Shown here piece after piece: positions 4,896-59,199 of a stretch of DNA of 64,000 nucleotides. The notes below the pieces were generated by a model that was not told the DNA's origin, did not search any database, and saw only the letters and a program-made list of their open reading frames with translations. The stretch is from the NCBI GenBank assembly GCA_950295325.1, contig OX485808.1:35544527-35608526 (forward strand), given 5' to 3'. The translations under genes were made by a program, and so were the position numbers. Each line of letters opens with the position of its first letter. Position 1 is the first letter of the stretch. The DNA is from Polytrichum commune. Its lineage: Eukaryota > Streptophyta > Polytrichopsida > Polytrichales > Polytrichaceae.

Positions 4896-4904
4896 CACAA
4901 CATG
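4896..4904 (+). repeat. 9-bp target-site duplication, left copy
   Basis: CACAACATG directly precedes the left terminal inverted repeat and is repeated exactly at 9316-9324. Nine bases is the usual duplication made by Mutator-like transposases. Confidence 0.92.
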
Positions 4905-5176
4905 GGGTCTGTCTAAACCTCCTCTACGAGCGTAACACGGAGCCCTTTCGTGGCCAGGGGCAGCCCGTCGCTCCCCGACCCTCCCTCTCCCCGACCCTGG
5001 CCGTCCCGAGCCTTGGCCGTCCGCCCGCTCATCCACCGGAATGAACTTTCATCCCGTCGCGCTTACTCTCGGGTCTCGCGCTTACTCTCGGTGAGCCGAC
5101 CCGACCACCAAGAGATCACACTTAAACAGAATAGGGGGTCGATCATTTCGCGGCGTGGAGATCGGGGCTTCGAGAG
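4905..5176 (+). repeat. Left terminal inverted repeat of the MULE
   Basis: It starts GGGTCTGTCTAAACCTCC and matches the reverse complement of 9062-9315 almost base for base. It contains an extra copy of about 19 bp around GGGTCTCGCGCTTACTCTC (near 5070-5095), absent from the right TIR. It is much more GC-rich than the surroundings. Confidence 0.93.
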
Positions 5177-5342
5177 ACGCATGGAGGTTGCGTTGCTTCT
5201 TTTGTTTCTGCAGAGCTCGAAGCCATCTTCAAGGAGGCGACCATCGCGATGATCAGGTTTGAGAACGAGCACCTGAACACGTAATCCGAGCTCAGGTCCG
5301 CGCTCTAGCGGCGATTCGCATCGAGCCCCACTCACGGGGTCA

Positions 5343-5523
5343 GTCAGAGAGATTGGCTCCGGGAACCATTTCGCGGTGTGGAGATCGGAGTGTTGTCGGG
5401 CTTACAGGGATCCCGGTCTCAACTTGGATTCGAGTCAGAGAGATTGGCTCCGGGAACCATTTCGCGGTGTGGAGATCGGAGTGTTGTCGGGCTTACAGGG
5501 ATCCCGGTCTCAACTTGGATTCG
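5343..5523 (+). repeat. Two 91-bp tandem copies inside the MULE
   Basis: The copies at 5343-5433 and 5434-5523 are virtually identical. The unit includes TTTCGCGGTGTGGAGATCGG, which also occurs at the inner edge of both TIRs, so the array looks like an internal duplication of TIR-edge sequence. Confidence 0.9.
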
Positions 5524-7517
5524 CTAATCACCTCGCACTAATCAACCCAATTCAGCGGTTGAAAATGGCATGAATTTGAGGTGCTTTGAGTGTCAAGTTC
5601 ACTGCAGAGTGTCAAGCTTCGATTGATTTTCACAGAAATCTTTATGTGAAGAAATCCTTCCTGGGGTTGCCAAGACAAAAAGGAACATTTTGTTTTCGAG
5701 CCAAGACCTTCACATAAGAGTGTTATCCGGGAGTGGCAATCGAAATGGCACTTTGATGCAAGGATTGCATCCAAAACCATGCAAGACAATATTGTGCAAT
5801 TTCATTAAGCCATTCTGATTTGGTGAGAAACAGCATGTGTGAAGGCTTAAGTACAACTGAATATTTTAAGATAAGCTCATAAGAGGGTGAGGAGTAATAG
5901 GAACTCGCCTTTTGACTAGGCTCGCCATCTTTTCCTACAAATACACACCCTAACTCTTGGAGATTTGTTCCTCGAGTCTCAATAAAAAGGGAATGTTGAA
6001 AGTTTGTTTTGTTGAAAATTTGAATGCTGCAACAACCATCATAAACACGGGAATAGGTAGGTTGATTCTCTCTGACAAGAGACATATTTCTTCTTGAACC
6101 TGATCGATCGATTGCCTACCCAAATTATTTAGTTGACCATATGACATTTTCTGAGTGATGTGAATGTGCTTGAAAGTGTGGTTCATCATATGAAACTTCA
6201 GGTGGAAAATATAATCTCTTCTGATTATAGTGATTATATTTTAAGGTGAAGAAATTGTGAATGCCTGCACAAACCATAAACAAGGGAGTACATATAGAGT
6301 CTCTCTGTGACACATTTCCCTTTGAAGTTGTCAATCTTGTAGGCAATTTCATTCAACCATATGACATTTTCTGAGTGGTGAATGTGAGTAAAATCAAGTG
6401 AAACTGTGCACAACCATGCACTGAGCAATGTCCATACATTCTTTGTCAAGTGATGATTTTTGTTTTTTCAAAATCAAAATTTGATTTTTCCAATGACTTC
6501 TTCAATGTTGCCAGTTCTGTTGAAGTCTGTCATGTGGATACTCTTGTGGCAGTTGTATCATTACGTAACGCAATGCAGGATACAACTGTTACATGCAAAA
6601 CCTCTGCAGGGGTACTGTTTTTTAGCACGCAGTGACAATGAATATCAGGATATTAGCACAATGGTTTGAAAGCTAGCCGTCCGTTCCGAACAAAGAAGGC
6701 AGAAAGAGCTGATATTGCGCATTACACATTGTTTATGTTAGAGGGAAATGTTGAATTTCTTGCACTGGTTGCTGAATATTTAGTGTCACCAATTCTAATT
6801 GTCTTGCTCAATATGAATTGTAAACTGCGGTGGAGTGCCACCAACACTAAATGTTAACCCAACATTATTTGTCATTCGTTAGTAACTTATTTGGGGGATT
6901 TTAAATTTACAGTGTTGCAATTCCTGTCACTTACCCAATGATTTTCAACCATCCATGACAATTATCATCCATACGTTGATGACAAGGTAGGGTTTTGGCC
7001 AATAGATGAACTTATCCATCATCCATGACAATATTTGTGAACTTATTCATAAGAAGTGTCATCCAACAGTTGCTATAGTGACATTAAATACTATATGACA
7101 CTAAATATCATATTTAGTGTAGACGACCACCGTAATTGGACCAATGAAACCATAAGTCAATATTAGCCTTTCCCTCACAGAAGCTAGAGCACTGCACTAC
7201 TATCTTCATGTACTTTTAGTCCTGTAAGCCTTTTGCATTCCCGGACTTTAAAATCAACTTCATTTCATAATGCACCTATAGATATTTGAGGCATGAAATA
7301 CCAGGTTTGTATAATATAAAGATTGCTGCTGGTACAGAGAAATGGTAATGAAATGCATATCAAACCTGTTGTGTAACATTCTTGGGTGCATTCAAATTGT
7401 GATTCATGGGTACTATATGCAAGCTACACATGCCTAAAAAATGGTCGAAATTTGGAACCCCCTGCTCCTACATTCTTGATATTGGGATAACTTCAATCAG
7501 GCAATGCAAGAGTGTGG
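5524..7517. other. MULE interior with no recognised gene
   Basis: This is AT-rich non-coding sequence between the left tandem repeat and the last exon of the ARL2 copy. An imperfect duplication of about 220 bp is visible: ACCATATGACATTTTCTGAG occurs at about 6136 and 6357 with related flanks. The segment 7020-7125 is a dispersed repeat that is also found, inverted, near 45540-45645. The interior may include further captured DNA whose source cannot be seen here. Confidence 0.5.
7020..7125 (+). repeat. Dispersed repeat with palindromic end, copy 1
   Basis: The segment contains ACTTATTCATAAGAAGTGTC and ends in a perfect palindrome, ACACTAAATATCATATTTAGTGT, around 7101-7123 (11-base arms). The reverse complement of 45540-45645 carries the same order of motifs. 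It is probably a MITE end. Confidence 0.6.
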
Positions 7518-9008
7518 TCACTCTAGCATGTAGATGCGAGAGCCCACATCAGAAACTAGCCAATCAAAGCCAGCTAGGAGGCCCTCCCCAGACACTGCAC
7601 TGCATCCAACAATTTTTCAGTGCCAGCTCTTGTCCATCACCTCCAGGTTCAACACCTGACCAAAGAGAAAAAGAAATTAGGCTTAGAAAACCCTTCGTTC
7701 AAAGGTGGAGTTGCTATTCAATTTGCACAAAATTGACATAAGTTGCACACAGGGATATGACGAAGTGATTGCAAACTATTAGTTATATACATAAACACTG
7801 ACAGGGAAGGGTCATCAAGGATTGTCTTAAGTATCCATTGCTATGTAAGTAAAATCTGGACAGAATCTAGCACTCATTCATATACTTATGCTCCTTCAGA
7901 AAGATTGAGCGACATCATCCTAAATTGAAGAAAAGCTGGAATACAATGGAGGGGTCTTTGATACAATATTGTCAGTTTAGGAGTTGTAAGTAAGGATTTG
8001 GCGGATTATTTTAAAACTATTTACACTATAACATTGCTTTGTGCACAGTTTCAACCCAAATTCAGCATATCACATAATGGTCCTTCCAAGGTTAAAATGA
8101 CACGATAAGTTCACCTTCGCAAGCTCTTCAGGTTGAAGTGCACCTTTGATATCTTGCTTATTGGCAAGGATCAACAACGACGCCCCTGTCAATTTCTAAG
8201 CATGCAACCAGGAAAATCAGTTTGGGTAAATAAAGCGCAAATATAAATCAACACATAAATATGTAGCTGCTCGATAATTCGAGTGTTGTATGCAGACACT
8301 TTCAGAATTATAAAAGTGCGTGCGTGCGTGTATGTGTGTCTGTGTGTGCGTGCGTGCGTGTGTGTGTAAGTGCTTGCGTGCGTGTGTCAAATTCAGGATT
8401 CACAGGACACTCAAACTATGAACTCGGGGAAAACTACATGATGTTCACACTGAACGATTCAAGGTGAAACACTCGAATCCTTCAAAACGAGCTAATTGCT
8501 AAGACTACTGCTGTCGAAAACACTTGACAGATTTGGTTTAGGTGGAGATTGACCTAATTCACCTCTTCTTTAAGAAGGCCATGAAGCTCATTTCGGCAGT
8601 CATCCAATCGTCGGTAGTCTGAGCAATCGACTACCCACACCATGCCATCGGTCTGTTCATAATAATTTCTCCAATATGATCGCAACGTCTTTTGACCCCC
8701 GATGTCCCAAATGTTGAGGCGGAAGCTGCAATCCGCTCACATTTTGTCCTCACATCAGAGCACATTTTCCAAACCTTCGAGTCCGAGGATGCATCATTAT
8801 CACATCGTCACATCGTCGCATCATCATATGAGTAGCAAAAACAGGATGGAAAATGTCTGAACCAAAAGCCTCATGACCACAAAGTTCGGACAAACCTATT
8901 GTACTGCATAGTTTTGATATTGAAACCAAGAGTGGGGCTGATTTTACTTGTGTCTTCGCCATTGATGCGCATCACGATCGTTGTCTTACCCGCATTGTCC
9001 AATCCTCT
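7518..9008 (-). pseudogene. ARL2: ARL2/TITAN5 small GTPase copy, truncated and nonsense-mutated
   Basis: Four exons are readable on the minus strand: 9008..8896 ([10 protein letters not shown]-loop, then [18 protein letters not shown] with the switch I Thr), 8725..8563 ([11 protein letters not shown] switch [21 protein letters not shown]), 8195..8115 (LILANKQDI, guanine specificity) and 7655..7518 (VGCSAVSGEG, then SRIYMLE and a stop). All have GT and AG borders. Together they match plant ARL2 (TITAN5/HALLIMASCH), a GTPase needed for tubulin-cofactor-dependent microtubule assembly. Two lesions make this a pseudogene. The first exon (Met, basic N-terminus and the strand before the P-loop) is missing, because the right MULE TIR begins about 54 bp upstream of the P-loop exon, inside what should be intron 1. 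In the last exon a conserved Trp codon (the HWKIVG motif) reads TGA at 7619-7617. Retained introns show DNA-level capture, not retroposition. Confidence 0.9.
8316..8388 (+). repeat. TG/CGTG-rich microsatellite
   Basis: An alternating GTGCGTGC and TGTGTG tract lies in the second-to-last gap between ARL2 exons. Alternating purine-pyrimidine sequence of this type is expansion-prone. Confidence 0.85.
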
Positions 9009-9061
9009 CTGCCACCACACAAGAAAGTTACGCATTTGAATCATGCATTATCCTCGACATC

Positions 9062-9315
9062 CCTCTCGAAGCCCCGATCTCCACACCGCGAAATGATCGA
9101 CCCCCTAATCTGTTTGAGTGTGATCTCCTGGTGGTCGGGTCGGCTCACCGAGAGTAAGCGCGACGGGATGAAAGTTCATCCCGGTGGATGAGTGGGCGGG
9201 CGGCCAAGGCTCGGGACGGCCAGGGTCGGGGAGAGGGAGGGTCGGGGAGCGACGGGCTGCCCCTGCCCGCGAAAGGGCTCCGTGTTACGCTCGTAGAGGA
9301 GGTTTAGACAGACCC
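9062..9315 (-). repeat. Right terminal inverted repeat of the MULE
   Basis: It is the reverse complement of 4905-5176 apart from the 19-bp insertion in the left copy and a few substitutions. The outer end reads GACAGACCC on the plus strand. It lies immediately upstream of the truncated ARL2 copy. Confidence 0.93.
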
Positions 9316-9324
9316 CACAACATG
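9316..9324 (+). repeat. 9-bp target-site duplication, right copy
   Basis: CACAACATG is identical to 4896-4904 and abuts the right TIR. Confidence 0.92.
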
Positions 9325-31700: not shown

Positions 31701-32799
31701 CTTTTTAACTGGCTTGCTTGTGCTGGAATGCTGCAGAGTGTTGGGATATCATTGACAAGATCCACTGAAGCCCAGGTTTTTGAGGGTAGTGCCACACATC
31801 ATTGTAATGGTGGGCAGCAAGCTGCACTGCAATGAAATTCATTTTGTTGACTGAACCAATTGTGTAATGGATATGTTTTCTCCTGACCATATATATGATA
31901 CATATATCTACTCATATATACTCATCATGAGCTCGTCACTCAAGACATCTTATTGTTCCCTACTTGTTAGAGTTAGGCTACAGACGATAATCAGTGTATG
32001 GTAAGCGGACATTTGGTGTCACTTTTCCTAATCGTGCAATATAACTTGGGTGCTATGTGGGTATGTATTCTTGCAAGAACGGGCCTCAAAATGGCAATGA
32101 ATATATTTTTTACGCAGTCAAATTACATTTAGCTTTGACTAATGCTAAAAACCAACACCCATCCAATTGGCAACATTCTGCTACCTTTGAACCGTTTCCC
32201 ATGCTGTTAAGTGCATGTAGTGACGGTTTTAGATGCCACTAGTTGCGCCATCTCTGGCTTTAAGACATTCAAAACCTAAACACCGTAAGATTAAAATCAC
32301 ACTCCTTGAAACTTGAATACATTTTTATCACATACCTCCCCATTAAAACACATAATCAATCTAAGAAGACATAAATCCTATTTATTGGAATATTAACACT
32401 GCTTCCAAATCTATAATTTCATAGTAGCTATTAGTCCCAACAATTTGCTAGGCAGCTAGATCCAATTACAGTCCTTAGATGAGTTGAAGTCTCACAAATG
32501 CCTGTTTCAACGTAAAGGACCTTCCCATCGCAAATGACCACAATGTTGAACCCACCAACCTCCCCCAACACAACTGCCTATGAATATTTTAATCAACAAA
32601 TCACTTACGGAAGATATATCGCACCACATTGACTTCAAAACTTCCCATTTATCCCAAGTCAATTGATCAACAAACTCATGAAATGATGGTACCCCATAAC
32701 CAAACCCAAACATTACCCTATCAACACATCCACCACCACAAACACAACCCACACAAACCTTCACCGTACATATTACATGGACCGCATACCCTATCAGCT
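31701..32799. other. Gene-less stretch
   Basis: No supported gene. From about 32450 rightward the plus strand becomes strikingly C/A-rich, probably the 5' part of the LINE relic. Confidence 0.4.
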
Positions 32800-34620
32800 C
32801 CAATCTCCGGGCATTATGTGACTGATAAGAAACATAAAAGACAAACTCACCATTATTCTACTACAAGAAACCAAGCTCTTAATCTAACACCTACATAGAC
32901 AATTGATTCTCACAGTAGAAAATCCTCGATAATCACACAAATGATATAAATCTACAGAGAAACCCATAGTTCACAACATCTGAATCCCCAAGAGGTGGCA
33001 CCCTTGCCATGATCCATAAAAACATATACTTTTATGAAAATATTACCAAAATCCCCACATCAAGTAACATATCACCATAACTACTAATGTTTAAAATATC
33101 CAATAAACCACGCACACCACTACTTATGATGAACCTATACATGCCCTCACATCCCATTGACCTCTCATTCATCCCAATAATCAAAGACCAAATCAAAATC
33201 CTCACAAAAAACAACCCTACATACAAAGCGGTATTAGCAAGGGACTTCAATAGAGACATCCTCCTAGTTGGTTGCCTACATGACGGCATTCTCTAAATCC
33301 CTAACCAAGAGGACAAAGATTGGGCACAATTCATGCAAGACCTAGAGCTTCACCCCATCCACAACAATGAAACCTTCTCACGACAGGGTGGCCATAACTA
33401 CACTACCACTAGCCTTATAGATGGCTTCTACACCAACATCCCACTTCACACCTTAACAAAATGCCAAAGTTTAACTAACCAAAATCAAGACTCAAACCAT
33501 TACCTAGTCAACCTCACAATCATTCCATACAACCGGCCTGAAAATCACACCAATCACTAGAATACCAACCAAAAATTACCTACCCAATCCCCTAGGAAAA
33601 CATACAAACACTCCTCATTAAGTTCCAAGAAGCTACCAATCTAGAATCACAAATGCAAATCACAACTATGCAAAAATCCATAAATGACATCCACTGAACA
33701 TGACTTTGCCCAAGACATCATAAACACACTCAATACTTGCATCGGAGAAACATGTAGAAACAAACAAGCCCCTTCTCCCTACCACACCATACGTGCCATT
33801 AAGGAGGTTTCCTTCAAACAACATTTTTTTTGGAAACAATACCTAAATACATACCATCTCGTAAGGAAAGCCATACGCATAATGAACACCCAACTCTACC
33901 CTATTTGAATTGCCCACTTAGATATACAACAACTATAACCCTCCCAAAAATCATCCTACCACCTACCCCACAATATAACTTAACAATACAATAACGAGTC
34001 AATGAACTTGCCAACATAGGACATACTGGGCCTTATAACTTCCCCAAGGAAATTCTCAAAGCATTACCCAAAACCTTTCATGACATGCTCTTCCTTATTT
34101 TCCGGCAATGCTATCTCCAAAAGAACATCTAATGCTACTAGAAAATACAACACATACCACCCCCTAATAGCGCTCCAAAAATGTTGCAGAACACCCCATA
34201 CCACATGGTCATGTCACACATCAAACCCTAGATACACCTACTTAATCATGACCACGTTACTACCCCGATACACTTATGTAGCAAAATGACTAAACAACCC
34301 ACAATCAACTTCACCATGTCCAACAATTACTTTTGGTCACCACCCCAATGTGTTGATGCAAGAAAAAACACACCCTTAAACTCAAGTATGGACAAGACAT
34401 GGGCAATCAAAGAAAATACACCATTTGGCCCATCCAATCCCCCCCCCCCCCGCTTCCCTTTTTCTGCAACCTTTGCACACTATAGAAAGCCAACACATGT
34501 CTCCACCTCCTCTCTATGCGCACTAATACCACCCTCAACAACATATGAACATCCAAACACAACAAAACGGTATGGCAATCACACAAGCCTTCCCAATTGT
34601 GTAAACTACTGGACCTAGAA
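32800..34620 (+). mobile_element. APE-type LINE relic (endonuclease and start of reverse transcriptase)
   Basis: The endonuclease start reads KDKLTIILLQETKLL near 32840. The body has NLYMPSHPIDLSFIP and LARDFNRDILLVG (33130-33270), then RQGGHNYTTTSLIDGFYTN and NSNHYLV-like (33380-33520). These match the apurinic-type endonuclease of non-LTR elements (GDFN and SDHYPV boxes, here slightly altered). Near 34000 ELANIGHTGPYNFPKEILKA followed by FLIFRQCYLQKN matches the start of the RT domain, and YHPLIALQK near 34165 the NYRPI.L box. Frameshifts and stops are frequent. The coding strand is strongly G-poor. Confidence 0.85.
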
Positions 34621-57264: not shown

Positions 57265-59199
57265 CTACACCAAGTCTTGGTTGGATCGGACAAATAAAAG
57301 GTCGTTCACTATCGTTGGCTTCAGCCCGGAGCACTTCTTGGTTAGCGCATTCCTTGCATCCGAGAAGTTTGACTCCGATTTGGAGTTGGATGCAGGGATG
57401 CACAAAACCGAACGCGCCACGCGCGACATGATGGGGAATGTGGGGGCTCCTTTCAGCTTCCACCACAAGAAAATACTAAATTTAATATTTGTATCCCGAT
57501 TCATTGGCAATGCTAAGCTCACCGTTGCAATGATCTCATTTTTTTCGAGATCAGTGATCTTGTATGTCTCATACATACTGAACTCAAACTCAATACGTGC
57601 GTTGAAATTGCTAACAACTACGATCTCAACCCCATTTTCATGAATCTCTTCTAATTCATCCTCAAACTCCTTGTACATAGACGTTGTGTCATCATTACGA
57701 CACTTCTTTTGTGGTGGGGCCAGTGCATCATCTTTCTTGTGATCCAAATTAGCTAAAACCTCCCCTGTGCCAATCGAGCGCATAAGCTCCCTTAGTTTTG
57801 CTTTCGCCTTAATAACTAAAGCGTCGGGGACCTCCATCTTGCGCATATGGTTCTTCATAACGGGATCCAGAAGTGTTGCTACGACATGGAGCACGTCGAG
57901 GTCCATCTTCTCTTGCACTAGTGGTGTCAAAAGGCACTTACAAACTATGATCGAAGGGGAGTCTTTGCTTGTCCTGACGGTACCATCGTCATTAATCACA
58001 TTGTTCATAACATGTTTTAGATGCTTCAACAGTTGAAATCGCCAAAATACAACATTGTGCAGTGTCGGCTCTTTGAATTGTTCGAGATCCAAAGTTGCCT
58101 TCTAAAATGATGCCAACAAGTCAATTAAGTGTTTCCAACATGTCTTTGAGATTGAGGCAACTTTCCGCAGTGCATCCTTCTGCTTCAGTAGATCGATCAC
58201 CTCAATTAGCATTTCAAAAACACTAAGCAGGCAATGGTATAGCGAGTTCCATCTGGTTGCATTCTTTTGTTTCAACATTTTCGACAACTTTGATTGAAGA
58301 TTTGACTTTTTTAAGTATGCGACCAAACTCTTATAGGCGTCAATGAGAGTGTATAGGGCCGCCATGCTAGGCTCATCAAGGTATCGGTAAAAATGCTTGT
58401 TCTTCTTACCATCTACATGTTTCGTAGTCTTGTTGAGTACGTAGGTCAGACAATTCGCGATTTTATGATCAATGCACCCTAACAAGTCAAACTCGCTTGA
58501 AATGCCATCTTCGGCGACGATGTTTGATCCACAATCCACCACAACAGTAATTTTATCGAACACCAAATCCTTGATAGTGAAGATGTCCAGAGTTTCCTTG
58601 AACTCGTCCAAAACCATAATGGCGGTGTGACTCTCATCGCGAATATGCTTCACATGCAATGTTCGATCAAACAGAGCAAACTCTTCATCGATGTAATGCG
58701 CCGTGACAAATACATAAGCTACCTTCTTGATACTGTCCGTCCAGAAATCAAGGGTGTTTGCCATGGATACGTCAGTAGCAATGTGTTTTTGAAGACGTTT
58801 TGCCACTATAACGCGCCCCGCTGTCGCGCGAGTCTCTATATTGCGTATGGCGGTAATTGGTAGACACAACAGGTCATCAACCATGAGTCGCTTATTGCTT
58901 GCAACATCGATGTTCAAAGTTGTTTGAACAAACCCTTTCAAACCTTGTCCGGCTATCGTTTCAAATGTTCGGAGGTCAATCGCGCAGAAGTTGGCAGCTG
59001 CAAGCGTCATCGTTTTCTTATCATGTGTGGTGGGGACGCCCTTTGTTGCAAATATGTTCATTGCTCCACTCCCCGATCTTTCAACCTTAGGACACTTATG
59101 ATCACTCATGGTGCTGGTACCCGTGGTTTTCTTGAACGTGTATACATTCTTGCAGCTGAAGCACGTTGCGTACTCGCAGTCCTTACCATGTTGTTGCAC
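57265..59199 (-). pseudogene. hAT transposase with one in-frame stop
   Basis: One frame of about 645 codons is interrupted only by TAG at 58104-58102. The N-terminal part has a BED-type zinc finger (C13, C16, H34, C36 counting from 59199), LDFWTD with the first Asp (151/155), VVDCGSN with the second Asp (222), and ATRWNSLYHC (315-324). After the stop come the second half of the domain and the hAT dimerisation region at the C-terminus (SVLCIPASNSKSESNFSDAR, FVRSNQDL) with the candidate catalytic Glu. The frame upstream of 59199 has no ATG before a stop, so the zinc finger's first part or a 5' exon is missing. Apart from the amber codon it looks young. Confidence 0.85.

Follow-up and report, generated by a model that had tools for sequence, protein, structure and literature searches.

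The window, a 64,000-nucleotide stretch of the moss Polytrichum commune (contig OX485808.1, positions 35,544,527 to 35,608,526), contains at 4905–9315 a Mutator-type element of 4411 bp that carries four exons of the GTPase gene ARL2 between terminal inverted repeats (TIRs) of 272 bp (left) and 253 bp (right). The TIRs align as two ungapped arms at 97% and 96%, or at 90% overall with the gap included, and an exact 9-bp target duplication, CACAACATG, surrounds the element at 4896–4904 and 9316–9324. The genome searched comprises 408 Mb in 64 contigs, of which seven (C1–C7) are large, 42–78 Mb where given, with C4 at least 57.8 Mb. The window copy is referred to as W and the other full copies as L001–L007. 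The element is organized as follows:

4896–4904: target site duplication, left copy (CACAACATG)
4905–5176, + strand: left TIR, 272 bp; the outer ~155–178 bp are common to related elements, the inner ~100 bp are like a locus at C1:7.73 Mb
5074–5410, + strand: stretch 91% identical to C1:7730087–7730425, overlapping the inner TIR
5342–5523, + strand: exact tandem duplication of 91 bp, present as one unit in L006 and L007
5524–6385: filler, source unsettled
6386–9063, – strand: captured ARL2 locus with partial intron 1, exons 2–5 and ~1.1 kb of downstream DNA, 81–88% to C5:44.4628–44.4655 Mb
6776–7122: dispersed repeat, 82–85% to many places and also in the resident ARL2 locus (76%)
7518–7655, – strand: ARL2 exon 5, cut short in the window copy by TGA at codon 153 (resident numbering)
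8115–8195, – strand: ARL2 exon 4
8563–8725, – strand: ARL2 exon 3
8896–9006, – strand: ARL2 exon 2, P-loop GLDNAGKT intact
9063–9315, – strand: right TIR, 253 bp
9316–9324: target site duplication, right copy (CACAACATG)

All open frames inside the element are shorter than 130 residues, and no match to the Mutator-like element (MULE) domain PF10551 falls there among the best 150 of 271 candidates, those that were scored. The element is almost certainly non-autonomous, a Pack-MULE; this kind of element is already known, and the present family is recently mobile. The original prediction of a Pack-MULE with an exon–intron, DNA-level copy of ARL2 is borne out by exons 2–5 with their three introns, the TIRs and the duplications. 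Its particulars also agree with our measurements: TIRs of about 255–270 bp, an exact 9-bp duplication, the lack of an internal transposase, and a gene copy within about 55 bp of a TIR, where exon 2 begins 57 bp inward of the right TIR.

A genome search with the left TIR returned 23 matches (23 of 23 candidates scored). Sixteen are the two ends of eight full copies and four delimit two related elements, L011 and an 11-kb element (L009 together with L010); the remainder are two single TIRs (L012 and L013) and one locus on C1. Such a search had been proposed as a route to other family members and to the transposase donor; it yielded the former, but not a working transposase source. Absence of further TIR copies with 9-bp duplications had been named as an outcome that would overturn the prediction; instead, exact target duplications of 9–10 bp flank all eight full copies, in seven different sequences, so the structure in the window is not a product of chance. 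The terminal 19 bases are unchanged at both ends in every full copy. L002, L003 and L004 show no difference over 4431 bp and sit on C5, C3 and C2 with different duplications. L006 and L007 (C6:30.056 and 30.477 Mb, ~421 kb apart) have the same duplication, with identical flanks of 140 bp on either side, and would reflect recent segmental duplication or else doubling in the assembly. Because this pair shares one duplication and its flanks, the eight full copies amount to seven insertions, spread over five contigs. Three identical copies at separate insertions, each with its own duplication, establish that the family moved very recently, and the element transposes as a unit.

The cargo consists of ARL2 exons 2–5 and three introns on the minus strand, with the splice signals of all three introns kept in 8/8 full copies; a retro-copy is ruled out by the presence of these introns. 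Exon 1 is absent: in W, ARL2 homology stops at base 9063, the TIR inner edge, and in none of the eight copies is exon 1 encoded by the frame preceding exon 2. In exon 5 of W, TGA replaces Trp153 and Arg151 is changed to Trp (numbering of the resident protein). The premature stop at 153 is present in five copies (W and L001–L004), and Asp66, which we take to be the G3 motif residue, is replaced by Gly in two (L006 and L007). A damaging change is thereby found in seven of the eight copies; the frame of L005 is open, yet without exon-1 residues. No copy combines the N-terminal exon, GTPase motifs and full frame of a complete ARL2, and a functional retained duplicate was rejected as a general reading on account of the seven damaged copies and the missing exon 1 of L005. 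An in-frame ATG in the right TIR would give a start fused to exon 2, with predicted products of 143 residues in 5/8 copies and 176 in 3/8; two of the three copies with the longer product have the Asp66-to-Gly change. If transcribed from the right TIR, for which a possible promoter role had been proposed, the copies could yield a 143- or 176-residue chimera with a new N-terminus, or an RNA acting on ARL2. Judged from sequence, the cargo is most likely a silent or RNA-producing passenger.

A resident ARL2 at C5:44.465 Mb has exon 1; of the matches, with 67 of 67 candidates scored, it alone is an intact ARL2. The best Protein Data Bank (PDB) matches of its protein are ARL2 structures, at 264 bits versus 202 for the best ARL3. 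When internal exons and introns were aligned to this locus, as had been advised, element region 6386–9063 matched C5:44.4628–44.4655 Mb at 81–88%. None of the 23 TIR matches lies near the resident gene; a parent locus itself enclosed by the same TIRs, named for related species as the other outcome contrary to the prediction, is therefore not the situation in this genome, to which the statement is confined. The resident gene is a homologue and probably not the direct donor. Duplication of ARL2 at the DNA level, as predicted, is upheld by the retained introns, but exon 1 was not included and the gene now on C5 was probably not the one copied.

The 11-kb element (C3:5.529–5.540 Mb) contains a spliced frame that matches the MULE domain PF10551 with 45 bits (cut-off 27.6); the SWIM zinc finger PF04434, which is common but not universal in MULE transposases, reaches 18.2 bits, below its cut-off of 19.6. 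The element has a target duplication with 8/9 bases matching, and the outer ~155 bp of the window TIRs correspond to it at 91–93% at the left end and in two pieces, 85% and 96–98%, at the right end. In L011 (L011:147–5977; C6:19.246–19.251 Mb), the transposase-like frame found covers the C-terminal part only. No target duplication stands directly at the ends of L011; TAGTGGCCTT occurs on both sides, 5 and 14 bp off the TIR ends, as if bases had been added outside the TIRs. MULE transposase genes are common in this genome, as indicated by at least 142 matches to the PF10551 profile (150 of 271 candidates scored) and at least 115 matches to the first transposase frame used as a query (115 of 461 scored). 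Both sister elements carry cargo: the 11-kb element has a piece of ARL2 together with a piece of the last exon of GMD, which adjoins ARL2 in the resident locus, and L011 has pieces of the SufB and TIP_N genes.

Pieces of the same ARL2 variant also lie at four places (L019–L022) between ends like CCCTACCTCAACGGCAGG, with TA outside. Of these, L020 was tested for transposase frames, and L020:3675–7228 (C5:41.178 Mb) encodes a piece of a DDE_1 transposase (PF03184, 30.9 bits, cut-off 22). This DDE_1-type family, L020 with L019, L021 and L022, has short inverted ends, and its ARL2 cargo comprises fragments of exons 3 and 5 and of introns. In a comparison of 559 columns covering six of the eight MULE copies and the four members of the second family (partial), the transposon copies agree against the resident gene at 45 columns; none is specific to the MULE and three are specific to the second family. 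The column pattern would fit acquisition of ARL2 by the second family either from the MULE or from the donor. To our knowledge, gene capture by DDE_1-type transposons in plants is unusual.

We then compared divergence in coding and noncoding DNA. The resident gene and L005 differ at 11/493 exon positions and at 126/1297 noncoding positions, or 9.7% (P = 7e-9), the latter count comprising introns 2–4 and the first 400 bp of the 3′ flank. Left out for poorer alignment were a stretch of intron 1 (30/102) and the 3′ flank beyond 400 bp (31/192, 37/190, 21/181 and 39/200), which would raise the divergence. The exon differences comprise nine synonymous and two nonsynonymous changes, the latter in one codon (Leu96 to Tyr), giving a synonymous divergence (dS) of 0.09 and a nonsynonymous divergence (dN) of 0.005. 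The other seven copies differ from the resident gene by eight synonymous and 3–4 nonsynonymous changes, stop codon not counted, the extra ones being later changes. Neutral decay after capture from the resident gene predicts ~20 nonsynonymous changes, if half of the path is taken as neutral in this comparison without an outgroup; two are seen (P = 5e-7). Among the eight copies themselves, 6/493 exon columns vary versus 72/3776 others (P = 0.37), and five of the six alter the protein; we conclude with moderate confidence that change in the copies after the spread of the family was under no visible constraint. The sister cargoes agree with the ARL2 pattern. The GMD piece has four synonymous and one nonsynonymous change in 62 codons and, less firmly, the SufB piece has 11 and three in 180 codons, where the test gives P = 3e-6 with dS and a weak P = 0.013 with its own noncoding rate of 31/688.

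Since noncoding DNA differs by 9.7% yet only one codon differs in L005, the donor was probably a functional ARL2 other than the resident gene. This donor, ~10% diverged from the resident gene in noncoding DNA and not found in the assembly, would be a lost paralogue or a gene of a foreign lineage. Several points weigh against this interpretation. The argument for an absent donor has no outgroup and depends on the assumed neutral half of the path: the expectation falls to 9.9 changes with a quarter neutral (P = 0.003) and to 6.0 with 15% (P = 0.06). SufB has a lower noncoding divergence than ARL2 (31/688 versus 126/1297; P = 2e-5), which does not fit one common age, and the donor may sit in an assembly gap or beyond the reach of searches that scored a limited set of candidates. 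As for mobilization, the TIRs of the 11-kb element match the window element over the outer ~155 bp only, and its transposase frame is interrupted by an in-frame TAG at a position that is Trp in three relatives; the gene is therefore not intact as assembled, and an active transposase source was not found.

The low amino-acid change could instead reflect capture of the resident C5 gene long ago, with the copy kept by selection inside the element until its recent spread. The strong exon constraint between resident gene and element and the splice sites kept in 8/8 copies would accord with this, but it appears improbable given that the present copies show no such constraint among themselves (6/493 versus 72/3776), that exon 1 is missing, and that amino-acid change is likewise slight in the GMD and SufB fragments of the sister elements. 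An ordinary segmental duplication of ARL2 that lies between repeats by chance has a negligible probability; L006 and L007 do show one insertion spread within a larger duplication (or doubled in assembly), but the unchanged terminal 19 bases at both ends of all copies argue against it, and the seven different exact 9–10 bp duplications do so decisively.

Two sources then come into question for a functional donor other than the resident gene. A second ARL2 of the same lineage, a local or homeologous duplicate since lost, is a serious possibility, although we would not assume it. One intact ARL2 was found in the genome, and the ARL2 and GMD pieces of the 11-kb element are neighbours in the resident locus, so that a whole duplicate locus could be their source; unlinked duplicates, however, would need to have been lost too, and the few searches that bear on genome doubling gave no sign of a recent one. 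In these searches (40 of 45, 5 of 5 and 10 of 10 candidates scored, covering few loci), no second long match near 90% outside elements was found for the GMD exon, the SufB and TIP_N pieces or a kinase gene of the window. Recent genome doubling as the source of a second ARL2 is thus unsupported by the few loci searched, which speaks a little for a foreign lineage over a lost paralogue. We tentatively raise the possibility that the family acted as a courier: ARL2, with GMD and SufB in the sisters, may have been taken up in another moss lineage, ~9–10% diverged at synonymous sites, and have entered by hybridisation or horizontal transfer before a burst of copies. If so, the cargo would preserve the donor's genes as a dated fossil, and the DDE_1 family would owe its ARL2 variant to the same source.

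Other parts of the element point to further uptake. The stretch at 5074–5410 matches C1:7.7301–7.7304 Mb at 91%, and ~100 bp of it falls within the left TIR and recurs in the right one. With this C1-like DNA in both ends, host DNA probably extended the TIR, a direction that we infer. The C1 stretch sits a few hundred bases upstream of the first ATG of a same-strand open frame and may be a promoter or 5′ leader; one 385-residue frame tested nearby, ~3.4 kb from the first frame, had no Pfam match. The filler matches C5:49.7409–49.7416 Mb at 86% (6045–6347) and 93% (5596–5677; 40 of 71 candidates scored), and other listed filler matches outside the copies are short or weaker (67–94%). Near this C5 locus, possibly another shared donor, lies a place that matches 62 bases of the 11-kb element. 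In the proposed sequence of events, an ancestor element would have taken up a genomic ARL2 segment from intron 1 to the 3′ flank, as well as host DNA like that at C1:7.73 Mb, which became part of both TIRs; uptake may have proceeded via template switching during gap repair, and the transposase of a relative would have moved the non-autonomous element. FoSTeST is one template switching model.

Pack-MULEs are known mainly from flowering plants. Like those of rice, tomato and Arabidopsis, the present family has long TIRs, 9–11 bp duplications, gene pieces from unlinked loci and no transposase. Unlike flowering-plant Pack-MULEs, it resides in a moss, holds four exons and three introns of one gene, shares its ARL2 variant with a second transposon family, and has a direct donor that was not found. 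Multicopy forms account for 36% (481/1337) of rice Pack-MULEs according to the accessible part of PMC8277862. In the tomato PM-ZIBP family, as described in the accessible part of PMC3310237, a captured gene fragment occurs in 13 elements with tandem TIRs and in one with one TIR pair, a comparable amplification of one captured gene fragment to many copies; extended TIRs built in part from captured sequence are mentioned there too. PM-ZIBP elements cluster with their parental gene from the same species (same part of PMC3310237), whereas here the resident gene differs from the transposon copies at 45/559 columns. Animal Pack-TIRs resemble the present case in gene capture by TIR transposons; multicopy forms are rare among them (even in frogs, 3/23) and for 56.9% the parental copy is no more than 15 kb away, unlike the seven insertions on five contigs here, and the authors name the FoSTeST model for Pack-TIRs (accessible part of PMC8277862).

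In listings of the open literature, and in the accessible part of PMC4054914, we found no report of Pack-MULEs in mosses or bryophytes, of a Pack-MULE with an ADP-ribosylation factor-like gene, or of Mutator-like gene capture in bryophytes. A term search of the main text of the eukaryote-wide Mutator survey PMC6446971 likewise found no occurrence of moss, Physcomitrella or bryophyt-. The present family documents very recent movement of a Pack-MULE in a moss genome. Set against each other for the time before and the time after the spread, exon and intron change suggest that cargo need not derive from a gene now in the genome; genes that were lost or are foreign could then be traced through transposon cargo.

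Elsewhere in the window, two adjoining open frames on the minus strand (58102–59199 and 57265–58092) resemble a hAT-type transposase by eye, and positions 32001–34000 show a strong GC skew of –0.42 over 2 kb. LEAFY-type matches were observed in the genome at C1:40.57, C1:62.30 and C7:8.64 Mb; the C7 exon is, in keeping with a plant host, closest to PDB 4bhk, presumably a Physcomitrium protein (226 bits, next 173).

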